Below, piece after piece: positions 1,141-22,073 of a stretch of 22,073 nucleotides of DNA (position 1 is the stretch's first letter; each line of letters begins with the position of its first letter). The translations under genes were made by a program, and so were the position numbers. Source of the stretch: a virus; the IMG/VR virus record IMGVR_UViG_3300009605_000172, positions 1-22,073 of that record; one strand, given 5' to 3'. The notes beneath the pieces were generated by a model, which saw nothing but the letters and a program-made list of their open reading frames with translations, did not search any database and was not told the origin of the DNA.

Positions 1141-2196
1141 CTAATCCACATCTTCTTCGGTAACATCTGTATTATAAATATTACGCGAGGCTAATTCTCT
1201 CCTGCGATCTGCATCTTCGCAATCTAAAAAGCGAGTTCCATAAATGCCTGCGGTTCGATCAACTGCATATTTACATAGAAAGTCTTTATCAATTTCATGA
1301 TCCACATCAATTTCAAGAAAATATTCAACATAACTTGGATCTAAACTTGAATTTTCATCCCCCAGTTCTTCTATTTGGGCCAAATAAGATTCTCGATCTA
1401 ATAAAATTCCATCTTTAACTCTTTCAGGATTTTTGGCAAAATAAAGAGGAATCATAAGTTGGCGTGTACCGCCTTTCCCCTTGCATATTACCTCATCCTC
1501 TATTTTGTAAACTTCAATTTCAAAATCATCTTTTTCAAATGTAGTGTTTATTTCATTGATATCAAGAAGAATTCCTTCGCTACCATCATTTACATAAATA
1601 TCAATAAATTCGTTTCCATAAATATTTGAATCGCTGCCGGTCAAAACAATTTCAGGCCCGACTTTCTTAATTATTGTATTGTATATTACATCTTTTGGAG
1701 AAATTTGTGGAATATTGATTGCACTTCCTGTTTGTTCTTTCGTCCACGAAGTTGTTCTTGCAGAACTACTTATTTCTCCTCTTAAAAATTTAATATCCCA
1801 TGCTGGCGCAAACGTTGAATTTAAGTCAGAAGTTCCCAAAATATTTTGAAGAGCATATTGTTTATCTGTTGTGGTTTCTGGTGGCTTTAAAGTACGATCT
1901 TCAAACACACTTTTTTCCCACTCGTGTTGTGAGCGAATTAATTTGTTTACTTTTCTTACTTCTGATTCCACGCCACGAAAATTATATTGTCCTTCTAATT
2001 GTGAAGTATCAACTTCAATTCGCTTTTGTATTTCTTTTTGATCTTGGGGGCCATAACCATATCTGGGATCATATAAAATCCCATCATCAAAAAAGGCATA
2101 GTAAGCTGGCTTAAGTTTACCTATGGAAAGCAAATATTTTCCATATGGTGTTAATTGGAGATCAATAACTTGTTCTTGTTTGTTAAAAAATTTCAT
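1141..2196 (-). CDS. Conserved-looking phage structural protein of unknown function (351 aa)
   Basis: The protein begins with an aromatic, charged N-terminus that includes the segment LTPYGKYLLSIGKLKPAYYA (about residues 16-35) followed by FFDDGILYDPRYG. This recalls uncharacterised proteins next to baseplate genes in marine phage genomes, but I cannot name a family. A charged, probably helical stretch follows at about 54-100 and a mixed alpha/beta remainder after it. The C-terminus is very acidic (ending TDVTEEDVD), and Cys occurs at about 306 and 327. No membrane segment or signal peptide is visible. The ATG shares its A with the TAA stop of the 3255-aa gene (TAATG), which indicates translational coupling, and AGGAG lies 4 bases upstream. 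Its place at the end of the baseplate block suggests a virion or assembly role. That is inference from context only. Confidence 0.72.
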   Translation of the reverse strand: MKFFNKQEQVIDLQLTPYGKYLLSIGKLKPAYYAFFDDGILYDPRYGYGPQDQKEIQKRIEVDTSQLEGQYNFRGVESEVRKVNKLIRSQHEWEKSVFEDRTLKPPETTTDKQYALQNILGTSDLNSTFAPAWDIKFLRGEISSSARTTSWTKEQTGSAINIPQISPKDVIYNTIIKKVGPEIVLTGSDSNIYGNEFIDIYVNDGSEGILLDINEINTTFEKDDFEIEVYKIEDEVICKGKGGTRQLMIPLYFAKNPERVKDGILLDRESYLAQIEELGDENSSLDPSYVEYFLEIDVDHEIDKDFLCKYAVDRTAGIYGTRFLDCEDADRRRELASRNIYNTDVTEEDVD

Positions 2197-5100
2197 TAGG
2201 CTCCTGTAAGACCTCCTGGTGGAGTTCCACCGCCCCCTTGCGTAAATCCGCCACCCCCTCCGGTATTAGTAGGAGTGGTAGTAGAAGTTGAGGGCGATGC
2301 CGATGGAGCAACATTCGTTCGATTAGCCGCCCTCAAAGCAACTTCGGCAGTTGTTGCGGGTCTTGTTGTGGCTCTTACTGTTCCTCCCGGTCCCGTGGGA
2401 ATCGGGGGTCGTGTTACAAATTGATCTTCCACTTCTACTTGAGCGAGTTCCACCAGTGAAAAGTAATCATAAGGCCAATTATAACTATAGTCTAAACCGA
2501 CAGGATTCAGATCTTGTGGGTGGCCAGTATAACTTACATCGTCCGTTGATGCTGGTGTCATGGACCAATAATTTATATTCGCTTTCTTTTTCACCTTAAA
2601 CACCATCCATCTTATTTCACTAGAAGGAGGCAATTTTTTACCACCAAAAAATTCATTAGGGCCGGTGTAATGAGTAATATTAGAGGTGTCTAATTCAGCA
2701 TTGACAGAAATCTTTGGCATTAAACCTTGCCAAATGTCTGCCAGATCAAGATCACTCAAAGTATGAGTAAATTCCATTATGTACATTGCAAACGGCTCAA
2801 TCGAACCGTTTTTTACGAAGTCCAAGTGAGGGGGAATAATATATTCTTTCATGAGTCTTCCCATATCGCTAATAGACGTTGGTGCAAGAACGGCAGCATC
2901 TCTCATTGAAGTAGTAAACATGCTTCTTGCATTTCTTGCGGTGCTGCCAAGAGAGAAAAACCACTTACCCATAATTGGAGCAGAAACTGTTCGAGCACGA
3001 CCTGAATTACGACCATATTGGCGTGTTGAGAAAGGAATTGCTACGACTGCTTCGGAAATGATTTTTTCATCAGCGATTTGACCAACTTGTTGAGTATGCT
3101 CTGTACTAGTGACGGCTCCAACTTGGGCAGCGTGTCTTCTTCCTCGGGCGTCCCTAGTAGTTTGGGCAGAAGATTCTCCAACTGGTGTATTTCTAAACCA
3201 TTCTGTCATATCACGAACATTCGGATTATTTAAAAATAGTTGGGGTGGGGATTCAATCCCAAAATAAATTCCCTTACTTCCTGATGGGATTCGACCATAA
3301 CCACTCCACATTCCTCGGCCATAGCCTTGTTCTGGAGTTTGTGAAGAAGAAAAATCTAAAACTGGTGTTTCCATAAATGGTGCAATGACCCATCGATTTA
3401 AGCCAATGTTTGTAGGTTCTTCAGGATCAACCTTGATACCATCAATTGACAAAGAGGCAGTAACGTTCATCATATTAAGAAAAGCGGAACCACCTTCATA
3501 GTTCAAAGTACCATCTTCCCATGTACGATATTTTGTCCATGCAGATCTTCGTTCATCGTCAACGCCTCTAAAGCTCATTGTCATACTTGTTAATATCTTG
3601 GTTAAATCCCAAAATTGTGACGATCCACCTAAACGATCATTTATAGATCCAGTATAGATCAGGCGAGCATGGGCTTTTCCATAAAAATAAGGAGGACAAA
3701 CTGGTGCATAAGCCGGATCAGCATTATATCGACCCGGAGCACCACCAGCGCCCCAAGAATCATCACCAACTGCTACATCACTGCCGCCTTTTCCCATAGG
3801 ATTGTATGGGGGGCCAAAATATTTACCATTAAATGAAGCACTGTTGTCGTTGCCCCACGTATTGTTTATAACTGTACCAGAAACACTACCATTATAATAA
3901 TCCTCCATCATAACTAATTCATGATTATTGGACGGTTTTGTCTTTTCCAGAAAAACATCCATAACATAAATTTTACCTTCTTCAATAACATTGCCTAATT
4001 GAGTTTGCGTAAGGGATTCTATATATTTTAAGTTTTGATTTCTTAAGAAGAAATTAGGAATTTCAGCCAAATAATTATGCATGGCACTTTTATATAATCT
4101 CAATTCTTGATCCAGGCCCGCCTTTGAAGTAAATTCTGCATAAGGAAAACGTCGCGTTTTAGCAGTCGCGACCGAAGCATATTGTCCACGATAAAAATGA
4201 AGTCCTCTAAAATAAGTGGGGGCTTGAAAAAGCAATTCATGACCTCCTTGACCCTCATTAGAACTAGACACGGAAATCTGTGATAGAGGATCTAATAAAC
4301 TATTAAACGGAAACCGCACATTGGCACTACCAGTCATGCTCGACTCAAGATACTGTGAATAAGGATTATTGGTTGTGTACGAGCCTGTAAAAACCGGCCA
4401 ATCAACAGAAATTCCCGATTTGATAGTATTATATAAAATACCAGGCGCAAACCAGGGCTGCAAAAGAGATTGCATTGCCAGCTGTTGTTCGCAGTTTTTG
4501 CTCACATTAACATCGGAAGCTCCACCTGTATATTTATACGGATAACCCGACTGTGAAAGTGCTCCACCCGTCACATATTGACCCAAAGCTCCCGAGAATA
4601 AACTAACCAATTGGGTTGTGCGATCAGCGGGATAGAAACCTTTATAGGGCAATAATTTTTTGACAGCATTGCATTTTAAGGTAATTCGATCTAATTTATT
4701 ATCATCTGTAAATTTCCCAAAGTATTGTTGAAAATCAGAAAATGAATATTCTTTAAAGAAATTACGATTAAAATTACGCACATTGGGTTCGGCGGGAGCA
4801 GCATCACCAACCACTGCACTCGCTGTAATATTGCCTCCATCAAGGGACAAAAACTTATCATTTTTTGCCATAAAATTCATAGACTTGTCCTCAACATAGT
4901 ATGACATATGATCAGAAATTCTAAATTCGGGCAAGACTGTCCAAGCTTTTGAAAGACCGCGAATATCTTCTGCATATGCCTCATAAGAGTCAAAACCCGG
5001 ATTTTTCCCAGAATCGATTGCAGCGGTCCACTTCAAACCCTTACATAGTTCTATAGTGTAAGACCCAGAGCTTGCACCCCAAAGTAGTTGATAACCATCG

Positions 5101-8100
5101 CTGGTATCGTAGTATGCTTGACCCAAACCATTGTGTGGGAGCCAATAATAATAAGCAGACGCCGATGGGGTGTCATAAAAGTTATTTAAATTACATAAAG
5201 AGCTAGAAACTACGCCACCCATTAAGCCGCCAATTTTCATGATATTGATTGAATTTAATTCCCCAGTATCTTGCCCCTGGTTTTGACCAAGCACTGAAGA
5301 TGCCGAAACTCTTAAATTGCCGCAAGGCATTGATTGTGAGGGAGGATACCAGACAATTGGCTCTTTCCCAAAAGGCCAAACACTTCTAGCGTGTCCATCT
5401 TGGTTTCCACAAGAATTCGAAATGGTTGTAGCAAAACTCAGATAATTGTCCTCCCCACGCAGGCCACAAGATTCATCGGCTGGGCAAAACCAATTGGGTC
5501 CAAGATAGCGATTTCGTTCGTCCCTTCTATCGCGCCAGAAAGTCCTTCTTTCATTCGGGCCGCGATCAATTCCATTACTTCCCAAAGATAGACTAGCAGT
5601 TAATGGAATGACCGAAGGATTAATAACGCTCGCAGTTTCAGCGTATCGAGTTCTTGCACGAGTTCTTGCCAATCCTGTGTTTGCTTCACGAGGAAAAATC
5701 ACTTCTGGATATAATAGAGCACCATTGTTATCAAAAGAAATACGATATTGTTCCGAAGACCGTAGCTTTTCATAAATTTGTGCTTCGCCTTTTTCATTTG
5801 GCGTTTCCAAAAATTCAGCAATTGAACGCTCAGGCGATGCTAATGGAAGACCTCGTTGTGTCCACAATCCTTTATTATTGGCATATGTATGTCTTAAACT
5901 GACATTGCTCAACTCACTTGTAAGAGGGCGATATTTAAAAGTAACTGGAGGCTCAACAAAATTCGTAAAACTATCTGGCCTTTTATTGAAATACTCACCA
6001 GGCGCACTGCCAGATGGTTTTGGCAGATTTATGTATGCAGGCCGCGCCTGAATTGATAAAATATTATTTCTTTTATGGTTGCGCGCAACGGGTGTTTCGC
6101 CTGTTCTAATTTGTTTCCAAGATGGATAACCATAGGGACCATTTACGTTATTAAAGAAAGCATTAATGCTCTGGCCAAACACAGTGGTCCACCAACTGGC
6201 AGCTTCCAAAGTGTTTGTAGAACCAGTAACAGTATAGTGATATCTGTCCTGACGATAAGCTGGATTAATATGCCAATATTGAGCAAAATTAACCACTTCA
6301 GCACAAGGAGGATCCCAATCAGGATCGAAACAAGATGAGCTAATAAACTGAACTGCCGACGCAGTTATCGAACCTGTGCCAGATGGAACAGAAAATGGAA
6401 CTAAACCATCAGAATCATGAGAACCGGCAGCATAACCAAGTGGCTGACTTTGACTTACGTTATAAGAATCATTTATCCAAGCATATTGTAATTCACTTTG
6501 CGGAATTGGATGTTGAATAAACCAATTGTCATAACGAGGATTAGAAATTTTAAGATTTTTAATAGTTGTGCCAAGCTCTTTCAAGTCTATAAATGGATAT
6601 AAATCTGTGGTTGATGGTTGTAGCGACGTATAAAATGTTGTAAAGTTTTTTCCCTTATCTGTGCTTTTCTGATAAGTTATATTCTCATTTTCTCTTAAAA
6701 TTCTAAAAATATCACCAACTGCTCGGGTCGTTGGCGCAGTGGACACAATAACATTCGATTCAAGAACATATACGGCAGTCGTGAACGCCAACGTATAAGC
6801 CGGTCCATCCCCCGCGCCACCGCCGTTCTGCTCCTTCGCAGCCGGATTTTTATCTAGACCAAACCGCTGACCGTTGTTAGTGCCAATATATGTAAGTTCA
6901 GCCGAAATATAACCACTTCTATCCAATTTTTGCGTTCCCACCGCAATAGCTTCCCCATACGCCGAGCCACCAACGGATTTTGAAAGCGTTGCAGCAGTTC
7001 TATCGTATGTTATATGTCCTCCTCGTAAATCTAACAAATTCCAATCAATAGTTCTATCAAATCCAGATTTAACAAGGGCACTTTGAACAGGATTTCTATT
7101 GGTTTTGTGATATGCTGCAATTACACCATCATAAGATGCTGGATTGGTCTGATGCTGGCCAGGGTTTGTTCCATCGCCAGGACTTCCAGTCGGACTAATT
7201 CCAAATTGACCGCAATGATTTGTTTGCCAATCTTTTAAAGCATTTCGAACTTCTAAATTTCTATTATTTAATTCATTGTAAACAGAATATTCTTCAGCGT
7301 ACAAGTCTAAAGAACCACGACCGCTAGCAGCTGGACTACCGGGAGACGAAAATCTTTCAACAAAAACATACTTTGTTGAACCAAATTTACTAAAATCGGG
7401 AAGCAGATACCCAGCATGGTCACTAATAAAGGCTGATGAAGAAACCACAGGATTAAATCCGCCGTTCTTTGTTAGAAAACTATTATTGGATGACCGCCCA
7501 ACAGTTTGAACTATTTCGTAATCTTTACGATAATTGCCGGCAACTGCTGAACTCGTACCCCATTTAATATTGCGAATATTTACTGGGCGCTTTGCATACT
7601 CATCGCGAATCATTGTTGCGCGAGGTTCGTCCGCAGTTCTGGGCGAAATAGTTAGTATATTCGAAGCTAACGATAAATTCCAAGCTTCTGGCCTGGTAAG
7701 AGTTGTATCCACTGCACCCGTATTAACATTTATGTGTCGATGCTGCCGCCCACCAACATGTCTTTCTGTAAATGGGCCTTGAGCGGGAATTCCTTTATCG
7801 TCTCCATAAATGTCATCGTGATAATTATCGATTTCTGTATTGCTTTTAAAATTTGTTGCAACACTTGCAATATATCCTTGCTTAGCAGATGAACTAAACA
7901 AACTAAAGGGTGCAAATATCTCGCTTTTTCCGCTTGTATAACCAAAACGATTTCCATTATTCTCAACTTTAGCTTCTAATCTGTTTTTTGCATTAGGAAC
8001 AATAACATCATCACATCCATCAAAACGATTTCCGTTCGCCATTGGAATGCTAGAAGCAGCAATTTGAAGTTGTTCGGACGAGCCAAATTTTAAAGCTTCA

Positions 8101-11100
8101 TGAGTATACTCAACTGTTTTTGCTCTTGGGAAATTTGAACCACCATGAATTTCTGGCGATTCATCGACTGTTAATCTATAAGGTTTTGTAAAGTTTCTTA
8201 ATGCATATGTATTTCCTCTGTAAGTTGTCGTTGTGGCTGTTGTTTTTCTGGAAACCACAAGATTTGGCACACTTCCAGTTCTAAAATCATTTGCATTTCT
8301 AAATTTATCTCGCTGACTATCAATTGTCGAATCACCCGAAGTAATATTGGGGTTATCTCTATTTGCACGCTCATGCCACCATTCACAATTTGAACCTGTT
8401 GCTGTTGTAGGAATTGGGGCCAATCCGCGTTTACCAGAATAAAGCAATTCATTGATTCCAAACACTCCAGCTTCTGGATCAGAAACTTTCATCTCCAAAG
8501 TTGGAAATTTTGACCAATACTTATTTCTTTCAAGTACATGACTTTCAATCATTGTACGAACATTTTCAGAGAACCGAGCGCTTCCCGGCACCAATTGTTG
8601 AAGCATTACTGATATTGCAGAATCAATCCATTTAAAATATTCAACAAACTTATTTAAATCAAGTGTGTTCTGTAATCTTTCAAAATAAAGCTGACGCAAT
8701 TTTTGCATTTGCTTATATTCTTGACGATAACGATTTACAGGTTCACCAATAAGATTATTAAAATCAACAATTGTTGCAAAAATATCAAGTATTTCTTTAG
8801 AAATGGTGTTATACATGCTCTTCTCAAAAGCAAAGAAATAACTTTCAGGTCGAGTGTCCCGAGAAAATAGTTTATTTTGGTCTTCATCAACCAAAGAAAT
8901 CATATCTGAACTATTAATTGTTTCTGGTGGTTGTAGTTCTAAGGTATGAACATAGCGTCGGTCTATAGAACCAGTTGCATTTGCAGGAAATCCAAAACCA
9001 TATCCAGTGTGTTGGTGTTGTCCGATTGGGCCAAGCCATCCCCATCGCGTTGAATAATCATTAGTTCCAGAAGAAGCAATGGAAACATCAGGAACTGTAA
9101 AATTACCACCCGCATCTGAACTGGTTACAGTGGCAAAATCCCAATTTAAAATTAAGGTTTCTAATTGTGGAATGCTTTTAACGTTCTTGCTTCCCAATGC
9201 AGCTCCTAGTTCCGTAATGTATGCATCTCTATATGGATTTAAAGAACCAAAATTTGTAACATCTTTAGCGTGAGCTTGCAAAACACTACTTGTAAGATAA
9301 TCCATCCAGACACGTAACGATGTAGATTTAACATTACTCTTTTGTAAAACTGTTCCCGTTGTATTTGTTCTGTGTGCTCCAACAAAAAAACGCTTTTTTG
9401 CTCTTAAAAATTCCTGAGCATCTGCGGCAGATATAGAAGAAGTAACAAGAAAGCTATTGTTTGATATATCTAAAACATAATTATATCCACTAAACTCAAC
9501 ATCATATTGTCCAGTCGTACTCCCACTTACACCATCAGCTAAGGGATATTTCTTAGGCTTAATTCTAACTGCAAAATTCCATCGACTTCCATCATATACA
9601 TCTTGAAAAACAGAACTAGTAAGTTTGGGTATAAGACCTTCCCCATCATTACTACAGGTTAATTGGAAAAAAGCCGCTGGTCTGCTAGTATCAGTACGAA
9701 CAGATTGAACTTGAAATTGTCCATAATCAGGCGTACCCCAAGCTGTAGAACCTGCCGTACCCGAAGTATGACAACCATAAATTGATGCAGTAAGAAAAGC
9801 CGCATTAAAATATGAACTAATTCCCTTTTGTATATCTTTGGGAAAATATGATTCTAATTCATAAGTATTTCCACGATATTGTACTTCGCCACTAGAACTA
9901 ATAAACCCACGACTATAAGAATTGCCGCTTGCTGTTTGTTGATAAACTACTGCATTTAATTTATCGGCAGCATAAAAATCTACATAACGTTTTCTTACAG
10001 TAGAATTATCATAGTTGTCTTGTAATTTATATGTAACTTCGTCGCCATATAACTTAATGTTGATGAGTTCTTTATCTACACCGAAACTTCTTATAAGGTT
10101 TCTAAAAGATTTTTCTGTACCTTTGGTTTTATAGATATAAACTAAATTGTTATAAATATTTTTATATATTAAGTTCTTAAGTTCATTAACTTTATCTCCA
10201 AATTTTTTGGTGTCATTGCGAGCATCTAAATATTCTAAATCTGTTGCTTTAGAAAAAATTTCAGATGTCAAAAATCCAGAAGCATCTATAAAGCGATTAA
10301 CAAAAGGAAATGGTTTATCGCTACCACTAATATAGTCTTTGTTTTTAAGACCCGGAACAGCTTGTGTCTGCAAATAAAGCGTATCAAAATAACTTGCCAT
10401 TATTTGCGTTAGATTTCGTAAGGCACTATTTCCTTTATTTTGATCATCTGATGTAATCCATTCAGGAAGAGAACCATAAATTGAAGAATTATTAGTTTCA
10501 TCATGCCATTTTCCAACGTCTTTCTTCTCATTTAAAGAACTCGAAACAAGTGGATGAGAAGAATATAAAATAGGATCTTTAAACTCTGAACTTGCAGCAG
10601 AAGCCGACACAATGGCCGATCCCGTATTGCGAGAAGTGACTGAATATCCTGTCCATTGGCCATTTGTTACACGACCTGCGTAATCCAGCACAACAGCGTC
10701 TTGGGAATTTATACTAGATGTGTTTATAATTCCTTCATTAAACTTATAATAAACTCCCAGATCTGCTGGATTTTCATAACTATATTTTGTGGAGGCGGTC
10801 GCTGCTAACGTAACATCTGTGTTTGTTCCACCACCAACTTGTGTAAACCAATATTTACCAATTTGTTCGGATGTTCTACGTGTTTTCCAAAATCTAAATT
10901 CATCAAGAGAGGCTGATAATTTTCCATAACCTCTTGCTGGACCAGAACTGGATACTTTTGCCACCAAAGAGCCAACTTGACCCAACATTGATCCTGTTAC
11001 CGTCCCCATAGTTGTTCCAGATACACATGTATAAGTTAATGCTCCATTCGTATATAAGCGTCCAACCATTTGACTTCCAGTATTTTGAAATGTAAGTGCA

Positions 11101-11963
11101 AAATGATTCCAAGAGCCAGTAAGCTTACTGCCACTCATAATAATAGTCGGAACATTATCAGAAGTGGAGCCCTTAACGACATATTCAGAAGAAAAGCCTG
11201 TTGATCCAGACAACAACTCTACGTGGAAATTTGGATGAAGTTTGTTGCCAACTTCAGTTCCTGAAATTTCCACACGGAAACGACCATATGAAGAAGAGAT
11301 ACCATCAGCGGTTCCCCACGAACCACTATTCCAAACATCTACAACAACTTGCCGTCGAGATTCAATAGAGCTATCAAAACTATTTTTATTAAGCCAAAAC
11401 TCAACGCCAAGTCCACCACTTCCTTCTAATTCAAGATTAGACAATCCTTGGCTAGCAGTATTATAAATATTTAAATTATCAAATTGTAAAGTTAATTCTG
11501 GATTGGTTTCCGCATTTAAAGAATAATTTACATTATACCCTTTAAAATAAATCCATTCGTTTTTTGTGGATGAATCATAGCCTTTAGTTTGCTGAGTGAG
11601 AGTACCATAAGACTTACCAAAATTAATATATCCAGTTGTGCGAGGATAGTCATTTTCGAAAATATAGCGATCTAAATATGAACCGGAAAGACTCCAATTA
11701 ATTTTTTCTTTTAGAGATCCATCATAAGGATATTGCTTACGAATATAATTGTAAGCATCTTCATAATATTTTTCTGCTGAACCATATATGGCAAAATTGG
11801 AAGCTGACGTAAAATCAACATGAGGAATAAACCTCTTTTTGTCTTTAATATTTGATCTTAAATAATCGGCGGACTCAACGGAAGAGCCCACGTCCTTCGC
11901 AGTAGAGTTTTCTAAAAGTTTATCGGTTTTTTTGCCACTAAAAAGATCTTTAATATTGGACAT
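2196..11963 (-). CDS. Giant LamG-containing virion protein with tail-protein-I/gp7-like motif (3255 aa)
   Basis: This is the largest gene here. Visible parts, N to C: a conserved-looking head rich in Tyr and Asp (residues 30-115, ending around YLDRYIFENDYPRTTGYI); a LamG/concanavalin-like beta-sandwich at about 180-372, with the hallmark SWNHFALTF near 283 and LDEFRFWKTRRTSEQIGKYW near 355-374; a helical block with YKTKGTEKSFRNLIRSFGV near 607-626, which resembles the (R/K)GT signature of P2 gpI/Afp12/gp7-type baseplate proteins; and a second likely concanavalin-like fold at about 700-910. A long helical region follows at about 1041-1160. Beyond it lies Ser/Gly/Tyr/Asn-rich, beta-type sequence with scattered Cys up to about 2950. 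A C-terminal block at about 2988-3085 contains IEPFAMYIMEFTHTL, and the end is Gly/Pro/Thr-rich (3228-3255). Position after gp25 and gp6 matches gp7/Afp12, but T4 gp7 is only about 1000 residues. Likely role: baseplate wedge arm combined with glycan or host-surface binding. The structural role is fairly sure; gp7 equivalence is inference. The start follows the upstream TGA by 4 bases with only a weak GAG ribosome-binding site. Confidence 0.82.
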   Translation of the reverse strand: MSNIKDLFSGKKTDKLLENSTAKDVGSSVESADYLRSNIKDKKRFIPHVDFTSASNFAIYGSAEKYYEDAYNYIRKQYPYDGSLKEKINWSLSGSYLDRYIFENDYPRTTGYINFGKSYGTLTQQTKGYDSSTKNEWIYFKGYNVNYSLNAETNPELTLQFDNLNIYNTASQGLSNLELEGSGGLGVEFWLNKNSFDSSIESRRQVVVDVWNSGSWGTADGISSSYGRFRVEISGTEVGNKLHPNFHVELLSGSTGFSSEYVVKGSTSDNVPTIIMSGSKLTGSWNHFALTFQNTGSQMVGRLYTNGALTYTCVSGTTMGTVTGSMLGQVGSLVAKVSSSGPARGYGKLSASLDEFRFWKTRRTSEQIGKYWFTQVGGGTNTDVTLAATASTKYSYENPADLGVYYKFNEGIINTSSINSQDAVVLDYAGRVTNGQWTGYSVTSRNTGSAIVSASAASSEFKDPILYSSHPLVSSSLNEKKDVGKWHDETNNSSIYGSLPEWITSDDQNKGNSALRNLTQIMASYFDTLYLQTQAVPGLKNKDYISGSDKPFPFVNRFIDASGFLTSEIFSKATDLEYLDARNDTKKFGDKVNELKNLIYKNIYNNLVYIYKTKGTEKSFRNLIRSFGVDKELINIKLYGDEVTYKLQDNYDNSTVRKRYVDFYAADKLNAVVYQQTASGNSYSRGFISSSGEVQYRGNTYELESYFPKDIQKGISSYFNAAFLTASIYGCHTSGTAGSTAWGTPDYGQFQVQSVRTDTSRPAAFFQLTCSNDGEGLIPKLTSSVFQDVYDGSRWNFAVRIKPKKYPLADGVSGSTTGQYDVEFSGYNYVLDISNNSFLVTSSISAADAQEFLRAKKRFFVGAHRTNTTGTVLQKSNVKSTSLRVWMDYLTSSVLQAHAKDVTNFGSLNPYRDAYITELGAALGSKNVKSIPQLETLILNWDFATVTSSDAGGNFTVPDVSIASSGTNDYSTRWGWLGPIGQHQHTGYGFGFPANATGSIDRRYVHTLELQPPETINSSDMISLVDEDQNKLFSRDTRPESYFFAFEKSMYNTISKEILDIFATIVDFNNLIGEPVNRYRQEYKQMQKLRQLYFERLQNTLDLNKFVEYFKWIDSAISVMLQQLVPGSARFSENVRTMIESHVLERNKYWSKFPTLEMKVSDPEAGVFGINELLYSGKRGLAPIPTTATGSNCEWWHERANRDNPNITSGDSTIDSQRDKFRNANDFRTGSVPNLVVSRKTTATTTTYRGNTYALRNFTKPYRLTVDESPEIHGGSNFPRAKTVEYTHEALKFGSSEQLQIAASSIPMANGNRFDGCDDVIVPNAKNRLEAKVENNGNRFGYTSGKSEIFAPFSLFSSSAKQGYIASVATNFKSNTEIDNYHDDIYGDDKGIPAQGPFTERHVGGRQHRHINVNTGAVDTTLTRPEAWNLSLASNILTISPRTADEPRATMIRDEYAKRPVNIRNIKWGTSSAVAGNYRKDYEIVQTVGRSSNNSFLTKNGGFNPVVSSSAFISDHAGYLLPDFSKFGSTKYVFVERFSSPGSPAASGRGSLDLYAEEYSVYNELNNRNLEVRNALKDWQTNHCGQFGISPTGSPGDGTNPGQHQTNPASYDGVIAAYHKTNRNPVQSALVKSGFDRTIDWNLLDLRGGHITYDRTAATLSKSVGGSAYGEAIAVGTQKLDRSGYISAELTYIGTNNGQRFGLDKNPAAKEQNGGGAGDGPAYTLAFTTAVYVLESNVIVSTAPTTRAVGDIFRILRENENITYQKSTDKGKNFTTFYTSLQPSTTDLYPFIDLKELGTTIKNLKISNPRYDNWFIQHPIPQSELQYAWINDSYNVSQSQPLGYAAGSHDSDGLVPFSVPSGTGSITASAVQFISSSCFDPDWDPPCAEVVNFAQYWHINPAYRQDRYHYTVTGSTNTLEAASWWTTVFGQSINAFFNNVNGPYGYPSWKQIRTGETPVARNHKRNNILSIQARPAYINLPKPSGSAPGEYFNKRPDSFTNFVEPPVTFKYRPLTSELSNVSLRHTYANNKGLWTQRGLPLASPERSIAEFLETPNEKGEAQIYEKLRSSEQYRISFDNNGALLYPEVIFPREANTGLARTRARTRYAETASVINPSVIPLTASLSLGSNGIDRGPNERRTFWRDRRDERNRYLGPNWFCPADESCGLRGEDNYLSFATTISNSCGNQDGHARSVWPFGKEPIVWYPPSQSMPCGNLRVSASSVLGQNQGQDTGELNSINIMKIGGLMGGVVSSSLCNLNNFYDTPSASAYYYWLPHNGLGQAYYDTSDGYQLLWGASSGSYTIELCKGLKWTAAIDSGKNPGFDSYEAYAEDIRGLSKAWTVLPEFRISDHMSYYVEDKSMNFMAKNDKFLSLDGGNITASAVVGDAAPAEPNVRNFNRNFFKEYSFSDFQQYFGKFTDDNKLDRITLKCNAVKKLLPYKGFYPADRTTQLVSLFSGALGQYVTGGALSQSGYPYKYTGGASDVNVSKNCEQQLAMQSLLQPWFAPGILYNTIKSGISVDWPVFTGSYTTNNPYSQYLESSMTGSANVRFPFNSLLDPLSQISVSSSNEGQGGHELLFQAPTYFRGLHFYRGQYASVATAKTRRFPYAEFTSKAGLDQELRLYKSAMHNYLAEIPNFFLRNQNLKYIESLTQTQLGNVIEEGKIYVMDVFLEKTKPSNNHELVMMEDYYNGSVSGTVINNTWGNDNSASFNGKYFGPPYNPMGKGGSDVAVGDDSWGAGGAPGRYNADPAYAPVCPPYFYGKAHARLIYTGSINDRLGGSSQFWDLTKILTSMTMSFRGVDDERRSAWTKYRTWEDGTLNYEGGSAFLNMMNVTASLSIDGIKVDPEEPTNIGLNRWVIAPFMETPVLDFSSSQTPEQGYGRGMWSGYGRIPSGSKGIYFGIESPPQLFLNNPNVRDMTEWFRNTPVGESSAQTTRDARGRRHAAQVGAVTSTEHTQQVGQIADEKIISEAVVAIPFSTRQYGRNSGRARTVSAPIMGKWFFSLGSTARNARSMFTTSMRDAAVLAPTSISDMGRLMKEYIIPPHLDFVKNGSIEPFAMYIMEFTHTLSDLDLADIWQGLMPKISVNAELDTSNITHYTGPNEFFGGKKLPPSSEIRWMVFKVKKKANINYWSMTPASTDDVSYTGHPQDLNPVGLDYSYNWPYDYFSLVELAQVEVEDQFVTRPPIPTGPGGTVRATTRPATTAEVALRAANRTNVAPSASPSTSTTTPTNTGGGGGFTQGGGGTPPGGLTGA
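2201..2217 (-). promoter_or_regulatory. Two ribosome-binding sites before the 351-aa gene
   Basis: The minus strand has AGGAGGT (2211-2217) and AGGAG (2201-2205), 14 and 4 bases before the ATG at 2196. Both are made by the Gly codons of the Gly-rich tail of the 3255-aa protein. The stop and start overlap as TAATG. The arrangement favours coupled translation of the two genes. Confidence 0.65.
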
Positions 11964-11967
11964 GGTT

Positions 11968-13491
11968 TCACTCTATTACTCTAAATTTAAAAGTTTCAGG
12001 TTGTTCTTGGTAAGCACCATTTATATAATAAACAAATTTAATTCCATAAGCATAACCAGTTTCAAGCATTTTCATGTCTAGATCAAAATAACTTCCGGTT
12101 ACATCGTATGAAAGCCTCGTGTGATTTAAACTACCAGTTCCATATTTAATAACATCCTTTTCGTCAATCATCCTAAAAACTTTAAAATAAGCATCATCGA
12201 CAATATCGTTTTGAATTTGTGTAGATGCTACTGTGTAAATAGTTGGACTCCAATCTTTTAAACGTGTAAAGAGGCGCAACCTCGCTGAATCATTATTATA
12301 ATATTCAGATTCCAAATTTGTAATCGTAGTAACATAGCGAGGAATAGAATATATGTTTGAAGAATTAAATTTCTTGGGTATAAAAGAACCTGTATGATAA
12401 ACTTTTACTCCAGAATCTGTAATTGCCGAACCTGATGATCCCGAAAACCACCTATCGAACAAAAGACTTGCCGAAGTATCTAACGCAAAAGAAGCACTAT
12501 AAATTCCAGTTGTTACATACCCTCCAGTAATGGGATTATTTGGTGCCGCCGTTATTTTTTCTCCTGCGCTTGCAGAAGTATATACATTAACATAAAGACG
12601 TTGAAGAGTTCCAAGGTTCGCAATGTCTTTTGGTTGGCCACGCACATAATTGTATAGATAAAGCGTGTTCAAATTATCAGCAGCATTCAAGTTTGAACTT
12701 GAAACATAAAAACTTCCTCTCTGATCTTTTCGTGATGAATCCCATCTTGCTTCAATAACTGGTCGCGAAAAGAAATATTCGCTACTTCTTGCAGAAAACT
12801 TTTTGGTGTAATATGATTGTGAGCCACTTTCTTGACTTTGCGAAAGCATTATGCCCACGCCATAATTGTTATAATCGCCAGCGATCCATTTTTCTACAAG
12901 ACCAGTAATTCTAACCTCTAAATCTCCGGTTCCTTTTTCACCAAATGTTCCCTTGTAATTAAATTCATTATATGTGGTTGTGGGAGAGCCATTCCACGAA
13001 GCACTCAAATAGCTGCCGCCAGTTAAGGTTGTGCCATCATCATTTGTCCAAACTGTATGAGCACTCGCATTAATCCAGTTTGAACCTGTTCCATCATAAG
13101 TTAAATCTGAATATTCTTCCATGTCTAAACCTTGACCTTCTTCCCAAGATTGAGAGACTGGAGAAATTACCAATGTAAAATTTCTAGGAAGCGTTGCTGT
13201 ATGTTTTACATTATAAAGTCTTAAATAAAAATCAACACTTCCGCTAGCCGGAATTGTTCCCGCAGTACGATCTGCCTGTATTGTTGTTGTAGCATCAGCC
13301 GTCACAACAGGAAATTTAGTAAGAATTCGAGTAAGTTCAGAGGAACCACTCGCTTCTTGGGCATAAATGGAAAAAACTTCTAAAGAATCAGCCAAACCCA
13401 TATTACTGCCAGTGCCGCGAGTAACCAAATTGGCATCAAAGGCATTCGTAATTGTGTTATCGTTTATAGCTGTATATCTTTTAATGCCCAT
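11968..13491 (-). CDS. DNRLRE-like beta-sandwich virion protein (507 aa)
   Basis: The protein is rich in Ser, Thr, Gly, Tyr and Asn, with alternating beta-strand patterns and no membrane segment. Residues about 111-170 contain SQSWEEGQGLDM followed by spaced Trp residues. Residues about 193-250 contain VRITGLVEKWIAGDYNNYG, then Ser-rich text, KKFSARSSEYFFSRPVIEAR and W. The order (Trp repeats, V-x-x-W-x-x-G-x-x-NYG, later a Ser-Ser-Glu and R-P-x-I-E) is the layout I associate with DNRLRE-type beta-sandwich domains found in surface and adhesive proteins. I judge this by eye, not from a search. The C-terminal half (about 265-507) has no recognisable domain. The ATG directly follows the TAA of the gp6-like gene with no spacer. 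The only Shine-Dalgarno candidate, AAAGGA, is encoded in the last gp6 codons about 12 bases upstream, so expression probably depends on coupling. Between gp6 and the LamG giant, it is probably a baseplate-associated or decoration protein. Confidence 0.78.
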   Translation of the reverse strand: MGIKRYTAINDNTITNAFDANLVTRGTGSNMGLADSLEVFSIYAQEASGSSELTRILTKFPVVTADATTTIQADRTAGTIPASGSVDFYLRLYNVKHTATLPRNFTLVISPVSQSWEEGQGLDMEEYSDLTYDGTGSNWINASAHTVWTNDDGTTLTGGSYLSASWNGSPTTTYNEFNYKGTFGEKGTGDLEVRITGLVEKWIAGDYNNYGVGIMLSQSQESGSQSYYTKKFSARSSEYFFSRPVIEARWDSSRKDQRGSFYVSSSNLNAADNLNTLYLYNYVRGQPKDIANLGTLQRLYVNVYTSASAGEKITAAPNNPITGGYVTTGIYSASFALDTSASLLFDRWFSGSSGSAITDSGVKVYHTGSFIPKKFNSSNIYSIPRYVTTITNLESEYYNNDSARLRLFTRLKDWSPTIYTVASTQIQNDIVDDAYFKVFRMIDEKDVIKYGTGSLNHTRLSYDVTGSYFDLDMKMLETGYAYGIKFVYYINGAYQEQPETFKFRVIE

Positions 13492-15294
13492 TTATTTAAT
13501 CGTTCCTTTGATATCAATATCTGGATATTTAATCTCAAAAATTACATTTTTGGGAGCATTAATATATCTGCCATCTGCGGAAAAACTTTGTTCAATATCC
13601 ATTATTTCGTTTGAATAACTTGCGCCCTCTTTTTGAACTATTTTAACGCTTGTTACATCAACAATATTTTTCATTTTATTAAGTTGATTGAAAATATTTG
13701 TGATATAAAATGGTTCTCCAATTTCATATTTTCTATTATAATGATTTGATAATTGTAAAATAGCATCACTCAATACATCAAACTTATTCGCTTCCATCGT
13801 AGCAACCGCAGTAAATTCAATTCCCAAATTTACAATTTTGGCATCTAAAATATCAATAGTGTCACTTATCATTCTGCCTTGATTAAGCCATTGTTTTAAA
13901 TTTTGCTTTATTGCGCTATTTGCCGCTATCAAAGTGCTATCAACATCTTCAGAAATTACATAAATATTGAGATTTCTTTTAAACGAAGTCGGGTCACGAA
14001 CAATATTTACTCGTTTAAGAGCACCAAATTGAGGAGGCATTGAATAGCACATACTTTGATAATCTTGTGATGTTACTGCTCTATTCTGTGCAGAAAAAAC
14101 ATTGTATATTCTAGTTTTAAGTTCTTCCACAGATGGCAAAGTAACATCTCCAGTAATAGGTTCTTCATTAGTTACCTCAAGAGAACTAAGGACAGTCCCA
14201 AGGGAATCAGAGCTTAAAGAACTTAAGTTTTCAAAATCCCAAATAGGGGCATCAACAGTAGTTAAAGAATTTGCTGAAACATTTGTATCCGCTGCGTCAT
14301 TTACTCGATAAATAATAGTTAAGGTTGTGTTCGAAGGAGCAACACCAAATTTATCTGTTTTTAAGAAATTGGTCGGATCAATAGTTGCATCAGAAACATA
14401 ATCTTTTCCATGAACCTTCATAACAACGGTGCTTGGATCTACTATAGAATCTACCGCTTGAGTTGTAGTTTCTGAGCCATAGCCAAATTGTAAAAAGATA
14501 TCATTTTCTGTTCTTTCTACAACAAAACGTCGAGGAACAACAAAAGGCCGTAAAACGTTTTGAGTCACATCTTTGTTGGATCCTTGATTGAGTGTAGCCT
14601 TATAGATTGTATCTTGCGAAAGAAAATCAACTTCAAAATATTCATTACCGTTTGTATCGATCACCGATATAATTTCAGTAATATCTTCGCCCGCCACTTT
14701 TATTCTGCGAAACTTTTGATATTTTCCAATTGTAGTTGCTTGTCTATCAACCCGACCAGAAACAACTTGACCTTTTGCTTTTATAGCAAAAGAAGTTGGA
14801 GCGCCAGTGGTATTATTAACATTGGCAACAACAATTTCATTATTTGGATTTGCAAAATTAATATCTTCGTTTAAGTTAAACCCAATTCCATCTACAGAAG
14901 TAAGCACCGTACCGCGACGTAATCTGGGTATATAATTCGAATCCGGTCCTGCTTGAGTTGTGGAAGCGGGGACGATAATATAAAAAGTTGCTTCTCCATA
15001 AGATGATGCGGCGGGCTGGAATCTATAGCCCATTTGTCGTCCCAATTTGATGATATTCTCATACTCAATGGCAGTATCGAGGAAAGACTCATTAACGCTA
15101 TAGTCCAAATAAAATGATAAAATATCACCAATATACGCAGTAGTATCGACCATCAATGAACCAAAGCCCGCTTCACTGAAATCTTGGAATGTATTTGGAT
15201 AATATCTTTTTGCGTAATCTATTAAATCACTGCGAATAGAATTAAAATCTCTTGATGTATAATCAATAAGCGGATATTGTTTTTTTGAACTCAA
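13492..15294 (-). CDS. Baseplate wedge protein, gp6 / baseplate J-like (TTG start)
   Basis: The N-terminus carries the strong signature of T4-like gp6 wedge proteins: YPLIDYTSRDFNSIRSDLID (residues about 7-26), then FSEAGFGSLMVDTTAYIGDI and LSFYLDYSVNESFLDTA up to about 78. The middle and C-terminal parts include AVTSQDYQSMCYS, PPQFGALKRVNIVRDP (about 420-436) and NIYVISEDVDSTLIAANSAI, which fit the baseplate J core. Length (600) is close to T4 gp6 (660). In family members this protein dimerises to link neighbouring wedges of the contractile baseplate, next to gp25 and gp7. The start is TTG at 15294-15292. An in-frame TAG lies just upstream (15310-15312), no in-frame ATG occurs before about residue 48, and the conserved N-terminus begins right after the TTG. 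AAAGGGG with an 8-base spacer supports it. The gene lies 26 bases after the gp25-like gene and abuts the next gene. Confidence 0.93.
   Translation of the reverse strand: MSSKKQYPLIDYTSRDFNSIRSDLIDYAKRYYPNTFQDFSEAGFGSLMVDTTAYIGDILSFYLDYSVNESFLDTAIEYENIIKLGRQMGYRFQPAASSYGEATFYIIVPASTTQAGPDSNYIPRLRRGTVLTSVDGIGFNLNEDINFANPNNEIVVANVNNTTGAPTSFAIKAKGQVVSGRVDRQATTIGKYQKFRRIKVAGEDITEIISVIDTNGNEYFEVDFLSQDTIYKATLNQGSNKDVTQNVLRPFVVPRRFVVERTENDIFLQFGYGSETTTQAVDSIVDPSTVVMKVHGKDYVSDATIDPTNFLKTDKFGVAPSNTTLTIIYRVNDAADTNVSANSLTTVDAPIWDFENLSSLSSDSLGTVLSSLEVTNEEPITGDVTLPSVEELKTRIYNVFSAQNRAVTSQDYQSMCYSMPPQFGALKRVNIVRDPTSFKRNLNIYVISEDVDSTLIAANSAIKQNLKQWLNQGRMISDTIDILDAKIVNLGIEFTAVATMEANKFDVLSDAILQLSNHYNRKYEIGEPFYITNIFNQLNKMKNIVDVTSVKIVQKEGASYSNEIMDIEQSFSADGRYINAPKNVIFEIKYPDIDIKGTIK
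13504..13509 (-). promoter_or_regulatory. Weak, distant ribosome-binding site of 507-aa gene
   Basis: AAAGGA on the minus strand is encoded by the final codons of the gp6-like gene, 12 bases before the ATG at 13491, which is longer than usual. The ATG follows the gp6 stop with no gap. Coupling rather than independent initiation is the likely mode. Confidence 0.45.
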
Positions 15295-15302
15295 ACGTCT
15301 TT

Positions 15303-15309
15303 CCCCTTT
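15303..15309 (-). promoter_or_regulatory. Ribosome-binding site that decides the TTG start of gp6-like gene
   Basis: The minus strand reads AAAGGGG with an 8-base spacer to TTG at 15294. An in-frame stop lies just upstream and no in-frame ATG is near, so this site fixes the TTG as the start. Confidence 0.75.
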
Positions 15310-15320
15310 CTATCAAATAA

Positions 15321-15710
15321 TTAGTCGTCGGGTAAAGTTAGTTCTAATTTGTCGATAGTACCCAAAGGCTTAATAACATATTCCACAGCAACACTCAAAT
15401 AATGCGGGTCCAAAGAACCATCAACCGCAGATGAGTCAAATTTTATATCAACAATATCAATATATGGAAGATATTTCAACACTTGCTCACTTATTTTTCC
15501 AGAAATTCTGCTATAGAGTCCTGGGGCATCCATCTCAAACAAATATCTTTTTAGGCCAATTCCAAAATTTAAATCCATCACTCGTTCGCCAGGAATTGTA
15601 AACATTAAATTTTTAAAATTTTGTTTAACCAACTCTACATAATCAGTTATAAGCATATAACCGTTTAGCGTATCTCTTACAAGCGGCAATTTTGGAGTTA
15701 ATCCTGCCAT
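15321..15710 (-). CDS. Baseplate wedge protein gp25-like (GPW/gp25 family)
   Basis: This 129-residue protein matches the length and pattern of the GPW/gp25 family (T4 gp25 is 132 aa). The key block is VKQNFKNLMFTIPGERVMDL followed by NFGIGLKRYLFE at about residues 29-60. The Gly-Glu-Arg...Phe-Gly core is the conserved element that contacts the sheath and the other wedge subunits in contractile baseplates and in type VI (TssE) systems. The rest is a short alpha/beta domain ending in an acidic tail. Older names call gp25 a lysozyme, but no catalytic site is expected or seen. The ATG is preceded by a perfect GGAGGTGA that overlaps the end of the 2117-aa gene, with its TAG lying between the site and the start. 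Translation is therefore likely coupled. With the gp6-like gene downstream, it identifies the operon as a contractile baseplate locus. Confidence 0.93.
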   Translation of the reverse strand: MAGLTPKLPLVRDTLNGYMLITDYVELVKQNFKNLMFTIPGERVMDLNFGIGLKRYLFEMDAPGLYSRISGKISEQVLKYLPYIDIVDIKFDSSAVDGSLDPHYLSVAVEYVIKPLGTIDKLELTLPDD

Positions 15711-15713
15711 TTT

Positions 15714-18700
15714 CTATTCACCTCCATTATTCGTGCCAACGTCGGCTGCTGGTCCAGCAAATGGCGGCAAACCGCTATCGATGCTACCGCAAGGTTTCTT
15801 TTCATCCCCTGGTGATGGCTGTTGAATATCTTCATCCTTATTAAGTAGTTTCTCCGGCCATTCAAGATCCTGCAACCAATTAGGTGCAGGCTTTAAATCA
15901 AGCCCCCAATATGCCAATCCAAACGGTGTAATCGGTATTCCAGGCCAAAACATCGGTAACAATGTTACAGGAAGCATGGCCAAACTAATCATCCAAATAT
16001 CTGGTTCAGGTATAAGATTATCTTCTACGGGATCAAACCATGAATCAGGCGGTTTTGCAGGAACGCTTACTTTTTCACAAGTTAGAGGATCAATCTCACC
16101 ACCACCACCCTCGGCCATGGCGGCAATAGATGCCGCAATTTGCTGGGCTTGGTTTGCCGACGCCTGGGCTGCTGCAATCAATTTATTTGTTAAATGAACA
16201 GCGTCAACAATTTTTCGAGAAATTGCAATATTAGTATCAAATATTTCTGTAAAGCCTTTAAAAACCAACATCGCTGCTTTAACTGCCATAAGTGCTAATG
16301 TTTTAGCGAGTCCTTCGAGATCCATGCCATTAATACTTGCAATGGCCATATCTTTACTAGATGGCCCACAATCACCAGCAAATGGATTGCCACTATGCAA
16401 AAGAGCGAAGAATAATCGCTTCAAAATTACTATAGTACCATCAAAAAGTCCGGGTATATCTTTAAACGATGCCAAATATGCTGAAGAATATACATTACAT
16501 AATGACAACATTCGATCAAGCGGAAACATATATTTAAACAAGCCTTTGAACTCATCAGTCTTTTTAAGGTCTGCATACAAACCATCGTCGCCCAAGAGTC
16601 TTTCATAATATTCATTTGTAAAAAAACCAACAGTGTCTGTTGCTGGCTGATTGGTTTGATCATTCCATATCTGTCTTATAATATCTTCGCGCCGAACCTC
16701 TCTCATCAAAGTCTCGCCAGGAATTTCTTGCTCAACACTCACAATTGGCACAACATGTGCCCATCGTTCACCACGAACATTACACTTATCGTTTTCTGCA
16801 TTACAAAATTCTTTTACGAAAAGAGCCTTTTCTTTCATGGCTACATCTTCCCAGGTTCCACCAACTTGTCCGTTTGTCGGACTCCATTGCCTAATTTCTG
16901 CAAATGGAGGCTGTACCGGATTAGTTGTGGGATCTCTAAGATCTCTCCATGCAAAATCACTGGGATGATAACGCCAACACATTGATTTTGCGGTGAATCC
17001 TTGCCCTCCCTGTTGAAAATCGCGAGACTGTAAATTCTCTATGAATTCATTATCTTTCATAGGAGTAACATATGAAATGCGTACACCAACTGAAACTTTT
17101 TCAAAAAAATCGCTTAACAACCAATCTGCACCTTCCTCTATGATTCCCATAGACTTTGCTTGCTGCTCACCGCAGCTTGCATATTCGGCAAACTCGCGAA
17201 TTAGAAGTTTTCTTAATTTTTCTGGATGACAGTTCAAAGGAATACCAGTAGTGTTGGGTGATCCGTTTTCATTAAAACGCTCAGTAATATATTCTTGAAA
17301 CTTTTCAATATTAACAACACCTTTTAAAAATTCTGTGCGTGTTCCACCATCAACAAAATTTGAATTTTTCCATTTAGCTTCTTCAATGGGGATCATAAAT
17401 TGATTACCTGATTGACGATATGTTGGATCAGTTTGCATTTTATGTCTAAACGAATCAACAAATTCTTGTCGAGTTCTAACAACTGGTTGTCCTTGAGCAT
17501 CAGTTGTTCTTTCCTGCCATTCAACATTCCAACCCCCGCCCGGTTGTTGTTCTTGGAGATTTTCAAAGGGCATTCCTTGATATGGAAGTTCTTTAATCCT
17601 TAAATAAAATTCAGTAATAAAGTTGCCATTTTCAAAACTTTCTCCTGGGTTGTATGGCATTTCGCGACGGGCAATACCGCCGATAGAAACTTGTTGCCGC
17701 AATCTTGTTGCCATATCTTCGCGAGCGCCAGCAGCGCGACCAAACAGCCGATCTACCGAATTCTCATCGCCTGTCGCTCCAGCAATATCATTAATCCATC
17801 GATTATAATGTTCTACCCCAGCATGACTCTCATTGACTCCATATGTTCTCATAAATTCGCCTTTTTCCCATATCAAAATCGATCTTATAGAATCCATATC
17901 AAAGTCAAGAAGGCTTAAATATGGCATTCCAATCCACCTTAAATCCATTGCACGCCTTAAGTTTTGTATTTGGTGTCCGTTGGCGCTTGCGCCCACTCTG
18001 TTTGTAAGGCCAAAAGGCTCGGTGGGCTGCCCGCGCATCTCGCGCCAAGCATCATCTGGTGGTCTTGTTCCGTGAACTGTAGCCGGGTCTCCCTCGCCCC
18101 ACCTCGGCGCGTCCTCCAAAATCTTTTTTGCTCTCGCCAGGCGGGCTGCGATCGCCAACTCGGCCTTGAGCGCCTTCCGAAAACCATCAGGTGACGCAGC
18201 GACACTCTGAAAATCGGGAACCCAGGCTCTTACATCGCTGCTGTGGTTCCAAGTCATCAAGAAATATTCGATATACCCTGACCTTCCCATTAACCATTCA
18301 AGGTGTGCTACTATGGAGTCCTCGTCCGCGCTGCTAGTGAAGTCCTCCATCAGTTCCAAGATGGCGCTGACCATGCGTGCCGCGCTTCTTCCAAGACTAG
18401 CGCGTGTAATCTGCTCCCATTCGCGAGCCTCTGCGCCAAAATCATAATTATTCAAGAAAAATCCTGGGTAAATTACAGTTGTTGCGGGATATTGACCTGT
18501 GGCTGTAACGGGATATGTAAAAGCATAATTAGAGGGAGAAACTGAATCATATGCCGGAGGTAAATGTTGTATTCGAGACCCGCCCGACATGAGCGCCGCG
18601 CTTGAAGCGCGTGCATACAAAGGCGCTGCAATCATTCGAAGATAAACGGCCATTGCCTTTTCTTCATAAGAAGATACCCCAAATTCATAAGGTGTGTCAG

Positions 18701-22067: not shown

Positions 22068-22073
22068 TTCTCC

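Follow-up and report, generated by a model that had tools for sequence, protein, structure and literature searches.

Which protein takes the place of gp7 in the baseplate wedge of marine T4-like phages, and is host recognition built into it? The question is raised by a virus record of 22,073 bases (IMG/VR record IMGVR_UViG_3300009605_000172), which is called the window here. All of its gene-sized frames lie on the minus strand, and one of them encodes a protein of 3255 residues, P0001, in a gp25-gp6 operon. We propose, with a probability of roughly 0.64, that P0001 is the gp7-position protein of the wedge in marine T4-like phages and is laid out as a core, a cassette zone and a C-terminal part (C-part).

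A giant gene in a wedge operon

The genes of the window on which the argument rests are the following.

1141..2196, minus strand: P0006, 351 aa, conserved neighbour downstream of the giant gene
2196..11963, minus strand: P0001, giant protein of 3255 aa, proposed to take the gp7 position in the baseplate wedge, 205 relatives in IMG/VR
11968..13491, minus strand: P0002, 507 aa, unannotated protein, between gp6 and the giant gene
13492..15294, minus strand: P0003, gp6-like baseplate wedge protein (phrog_219, E=1.2e-16)
15321..15710, minus strand: P0004, gp25-like wedge protein (PF04965, E=3.3e-12)
15714-22073, minus strand: protein of 2119 aa upstream of gp25, its frame left open by the edge of the window

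The frame of P0001 runs unbroken from ATG to stop, as had been predicted, and it is not a product of chance, since it is conserved in relatives. The relatives were found by tblastn; the 80 retained out of 205 are 33-77% identical to P0001, mostly near full length, and P0001 relatives usually measure 2840-3900 aa. The whole length of P0001 gave no match to Pfam and PHROGs models. On the minus strand the order is 2119-aa protein, gp25, gp6, 507-aa protein, giant, 351-aa protein and a last protein that is truncated at the window edge and reaches about 1240 aa in a relative, and the order gp25-gp6-507 aa-giant is maintained in relatives. P0003 is 32.6% identical over 98% to an annotated Flavobacterium phage wedge protein. 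The 2119-aa protein had no match in Pfam, PHROG or phage records, and its counterparts in relatives are about 1500-2770 aa long. In the relative L003 the 507-aa protein is 91% identical, and gp6 there just 74%.

A gp23-type major capsid protein is encoded in all six of the relatives whose contigs measure 151-186 kb, and these long relatives are therefore T4-like myoviruses. Judged by gp6, the closest isolates are Flavobacterium phage immuto and Microcystis phage Mel-JY01. One core relative is located in a Flavobacteriales MAG contig, which hints weakly at Bacteroidota hosts for phages of the P0001 type. The T4 gp8 model (PF09215) found no match in P0001 relatives. As a separate observation, the leader MK(I/L)TKSxLxxIIxEE stands at the N-terminus of different small ORFs in 12 cases within three 20-kb stretches of these phages (L328 at 15407, 15878 and 16414; L330 at 681, 14309, 14653 and 14913; L331 at 11987-17286), and none was seen in the scanned stretches of T4, S-PM2, immuto and Mel-JY01. 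By analogy with T4 internal proteins, this leader may serve in capsid targeting or injection.

The KGT block and the gp7 position

The wedge role of gpI-type proteins is known (PMC6300606, PMC10457771), and gpI, gp7, Mup48 and TssG hold equivalent places in the 2:1 complexes formed with gp6/gpJ/TssF (PMC6300606). The parts of P0001 that bear on its relation to these proteins, from the N-terminus onwards, are as follows.

10764..11546, minus strand: LamG / concanavalin A-like domain 1 (LamG 1), residues 140-400 (PF13385)
10344..10553, minus strand: helices ahead of the KGT block, residues 471-540 (AlphaFold secondary structure, low confidence)
10077..10133, minus strand: KGT block YKTKGTEKSFRNLIRSFGV, residues 611-629 (profile-profile comparison with shuffled-column nulls)
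9159..9896, minus strand: possible second beta-sandwich, residues 690-935, between the two helical blocks
8469..8846, minus strand: second conserved block, YKWiDxxlxxMLxQLvPaSA...ESHvLERNKY, residues 1040-1165, end of the compact core

The helical block carrying YKTKGTEKSFRNLIRSFGV had been placed at residues 607-626; it is present, but at 611-629. The region 601-640 that contains it is, alongside 1041-1160, among the most conserved parts of P0001. A helix-KG(T/I)-helix block occurs in a gene that follows gp6 in the gp25-gp6 operon, with one gene between. The same block is seen in P2 gpI as HCHKGTIGAIRRVVEPLG, in the 3048-aa post-gp6 protein of S-PM2 (S-PM2p084) as FYRAKGTDQSIKFIFNTL at residue 197, and, as a KGT-type block, in T4 gp7 (FYSTKGIEASYKFLFKVLY, YSTKGIEASYKFLF at about residues 735-750). 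It is also visible in immuto gp109 and in Mel-JY01, the isolate relatives in the same gene slot, which match the core profile with E=4e-16 and E=5e-18, respectively.

Profile-profile comparisons were made with query windows centred on the motif, and their scores were judged against nulls in which the target columns were shuffled. The P0001 family together with the immuto group matched the S-PM2 block (E=9.3e-7, 0 of 150 shuffles as high), the full S-PM2 protein (E=1.3e-4, 0 of 60) and the P2 gpI family (E=0.0045, 0 of 200). The S-PM2 block in turn matched full T4 gp7 (E=1.1e-5, 0 of 150), as did the block pooled with S-PM2 when set against full-length T4 gp7 (E=8.9e-6, probability 83%, 0 of 200). 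The direct comparison of the P0001 family with T4 gp7, without S-PM2, was marginal (E=0.014, 3 of 200 shuffles as high), and the gpI profile did not find T4 gp7 (90 of 200). A block HMM built from the P0001 family and four distant relatives put S-PM2p084 at the top of the 341 S-PM2 ORFs and, by a narrow margin, gpI at the top of the 197 P2 ORFs; T4 gp7 was top-ranked only with the block HMM pooled with S-PM2 (E=0.25). These comparisons support a relation of the KGT block of P0001 to P2 gpI and the S-PM2 giant, and through S-PM2 to T4 gp7, and the original prediction of an (R/K)GT motif followed by a helix, as in gpI and gp7, is supported on that route.

The homology to gp7 and gpI is carried by about 35 residues, and enlarging the KGT window to 195 residues left the convincing alignment no longer than before. 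Among Pfam families, Tail_P2_I (PF09684) drew matches from the largest number of sequences in the core alignment, though from no more than 3 of 47 and with a best E=0.11, and its model found no match in the six long relatives. T4 gp7 itself is also unmatched by PF09684, so that this model does not define the wider gp7/gpI/TssG group. The AlphaFold model of residues 430-735 is unusable (pLDDT 51, pTM 0.24), and the lack of a Foldseek match with it therefore carries no weight. At low confidence, AlphaFold predicts helices at about 471-540 and 589-626, and by the layout of gpI and gp7 those at 471-540 are possible core-bundle helices. A likeness to gp7 and gpI had further been looked for at residues 1040-1160, and here the outcome was negative: these helices did not match gp7, gpI or S-PM2, and a scan over T4, S-PM2 and P2 placed gpI and S-PM2p084 low and T4 gp7 not near the top.

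The short extent of this homology and the failure of the second helical block bear on another explanation, in which P0001 is a peripheral baseplate or adhesin protein beside gp6, its KGT block is convergent or a small interaction motif, and the third wedge chain is P0002, P0005, P0006 or P0007. The gene lying between the giant and gp6 counts against the gp7 position, and the several large, unannotated neighbours in the operon are also consistent with a peripheral role. However, the KGT block occupies the same post-gp6 slot in S-PM2, immuto and Mel-JY01, belongs to the best-conserved parts of the protein and withstands the shuffled-column nulls; we consider a peripheral role unlikely.

A different candidate for the vacant position has been published for related marine T4-like phages: gp7 is absent in cyano- and pelagimyophages and is apparently substituted by VrlC (PMC7029224), in which case the giant would be an extra structural protein. 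The S-PM2 gene taken here as VrlC is p087 ('Virulence Associated protein'). By tblastn, no relative of p087 was found in seven long contigs of the P0001 group, in immuto or in Mel-JY01, the KGT-type pattern was not found in p087, and in S-PM2 the T4 gp7 block sits instead in S-PM2p084, which adjoins gp6. Substitution by VrlC is thus very improbable for this group, and, both for S-PM2 and for this group of over 200 environmental phages, the KGT block points to the post-gp6 giant, not VrlC, as the equivalent of gp7. Core matches occur once per genome. The original prediction named a separate gp7 homologue in the same genome as evidence against it; no separate gp7, PF09684 or VrlC was found in the long relatives, by searches that a very remote homologue would escape.

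Conserved core, cassette zone and C-part

At the N-terminus, PF13385 matches residues 240-368 of P0001 above its curated cut-off (E=1.1e-7; 32.5 bits vs 27.6) and also matches 35 of 37 relatives, with SWNHFALTF at residue 284 and LDEFRFWKTRRTSEQ at 353, which verifies the LamG-type fold expected there. The second likely beta-sandwich that had been proposed is unconfirmed: residues 690-935 resemble such a fold by eye, found no Pfam match among 40 relatives and compare weakly with LamG 1 (E=0.063), so that a second beta-sandwich is only suggestive. HMM searches of PDB sequences with core, LamG, second-beta and C-part profiles gave no credible match; Rab and IcmE matches in that search were rejected as chance or repeats by their appearance. 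One compact relative, L097, has 1204 aa and stops right after the second conserved block, which points to a core some 1170 residues long. Three segments lie beyond this boundary.

5019..8426, minus strand: module-insertion, fast-evolving zone, residues 1180-2315, between core and C-part
6519..7091, minus strand: accessory module, residues 1625-1815, presence varies among relatives
2349..5018, minus strand: C-part, separable domain, residues 2316-3205 (AlphaFold pTM 0.83)

Modules turn over in the first of these segments. The accessory module is missing in L001, 42% identical in L002 and 24% identical in L003, which holds a second partial copy of it in an insertion after residue 1184. Additional LamG domains are inserted in other relatives after 1204, 1324 or 1429 (PF13385, E=6e-12 to 1e-19), and L090 has two further LamG domains. 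In comparison with the two closest relatives, identity is mostly 70-89% over residues 1-1500, 18-69% over residues 1600-2000 and 44-74% over most of the C-part; the fastest-varying zone of P0001 is 1180-2300.

These rates bear on a further reading, that of the original prediction, in which P0001 is a single threefold-enlarged gp7 that binds host glycans through LamG domains, one at 180-372 and one behind the KGT helix, with these domains replacing separate fibres. LamG 1 is indeed confirmed and the KGT block does come after it, and there is no obvious classical fibre gene beside the wedge genes in the stretches of two relatives. However, the two closest relatives share 71-79% identity with P0001 in LamG 1, which is the pace of gp6 (74%), whereas identity falls sharply in residues 1600-2000. 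LamG folds are also used in protein-protein contact. In addition, one relative (L024, contig G001, 156004-158795) carries two separate Peptidase_S74 ORFs, distant from the wedge operon; Peptidase_S74 is of the fibre/spike chaperone type. The C-part, moreover, is separable. A single enlarged gp7 that replaces fibres is accordingly quite unlikely, and the assignment of LamG 1 as the host-recognition domain is not supported. Because the 1180-2300 zone varies fastest and LamG 1 keeps the pace of gp6, this variation makes the zone the better candidate for host contact, and host recognition, if any, more likely lies there than in LamG 1.

The C-part alone is predicted with confidence by AlphaFold, with 326 residues at pLDDT >= 90. 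It found no match among PDB structures (best E=1.6) and just seven matches in BFVD (E<=6e-21), apparently members of its own family; the predicted fold would thus be new to the PDB. The C-part was absent from immuto, Mel-JY01, S-PM2 and T4.

In 11 loci the C-part is encoded as its own gene; two of these duplicate another contig or are near-copies, and nine were placed in the tree. The junction is variable, falling right after residue 1627 or within 2107-2316, and the gene-split positions of relatives lie in the 1630-2315 part of the zone. The spacing between the two genes is -28 to +24 bases, with the exception of L041 (+234), and Shine-Dalgarno-like sequences (GGAG, GGAGG) precede most second genes. 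On a quick core tree the split label requires at least 7 changes, 5 of which are forced by well-supported branches. A frameshift or assembly error was considered as the source of the splits and rejected for most loci, given the Shine-Dalgarno-like starts and the repeated switching on the tree; the L041 split, with its wide gap, a GTG start and a core nearly identical to that of L020, which is fused, is possibly such an error. The repeated switching shows that the two parts need not be covalently linked, an indication that core and C-part act in the same complex. Of the threefold-enlarged gp7, then, the gp7-related block is supported and the enlargement is not, the last ~900 residues being separable.

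On our preferred reading, the gp7-position protein with its three-part layout, the N-terminal ~1170 residues would form the wedge core, comprising LamG 1, the KGT helices, a probable second beta domain and the second helical block. The KGT helix region would pack on the gp6 dimer in the manner of gpI/gp7/TssG, and the beta domains would decorate the rim of the wedge. The cassette zone, about 1180-2300, where relatives acquire, lose and exchange LamG and other modules of beta type, would be the likeliest site for contact with the host surface or for attaching fibres. The final ~900 residues would be a separately folded subunit in the same complex, able to work linked or unlinked, since relatives alternate between one gene and two.

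A stronger version is doubtful, namely that one chain unites a gp7 core, swappable lectin-type host-recognition cassettes and a ~900-residue subunit of unsolved fold. If it were true, a single chain would join three parts that are otherwise apart in contractile tails, the last joint, at the C-part, would be one that relatives repeatedly cut and rejoin, and receptor binding would be written into the wedge. The cassette zone and the C-part are, in any case, named segments for testing host recognition.

Comparison with known systems

Cyanomyophages were already known to encode giant proteins in the gp7 slot, and that of S-PM2 is annotated simply as a virion structural protein; the additions made here are the link to gp7 and gpI, the core-cassette-C-part anatomy and the switching between fused and split genes. 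Concanavalin A domains have also been noted in structural genes of marine T4-like phages (PMC7029224). S-PM2p084, from a Synechococcus phage (3048 aa, L103 7073-16219), is, like P0001, a giant encoded after gp25-gp6 in a T4-like phage, and the two have the KGT block in common. We note four differences between them. First, there is no detectable sequence similarity beyond the KGT block. Second, this block lies near the N-terminus of S-PM2p084, unlike in P0001. Third, S-PM2p084 is followed by gp8, whereas gp8 was undetected in the P0001 group. Fourth, S-PM2p084 lacks the C-part.

Closer in sequence are immuto gp109 (1265 aa) and Mel-JY01 WWT39511 (1336 aa), whose core around the KGT block is homologous to that of P0001 and whose genes lie in the same operon. 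They are 2.5 times shorter, have no C-part and show no match to LamG 1 in their N-terminal stretch. T4 gp7 (1032 aa) shares the KGT-type block and is three times shorter; its gene lies directly behind gp6, whereas the P0001 gene lies one further on. Its firm match to P0001 runs only via the S-PM2 bridge, with no detectable similarity elsewhere.

In AlgoCIS Alg12 and in Afp12, the gp7-like part is a hot spot of re-engineering and holds fibres (PMC8894135); by description, which is the level of this comparison, it is fused there to a gp6-like part, whereas P0001 has gp6 separate. P2 gpI/Tail_P2_I (PF09684), TssG and XM1 gp17 have, as P0001, a KGT motif followed by a helix and are encoded after gpJ/gp6. 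Proteins of the gp7 type are elastic in size, XM1 gp17 having 242 residues (PMC10457771) and P2 gpI 176, as against 3255 in P0001.
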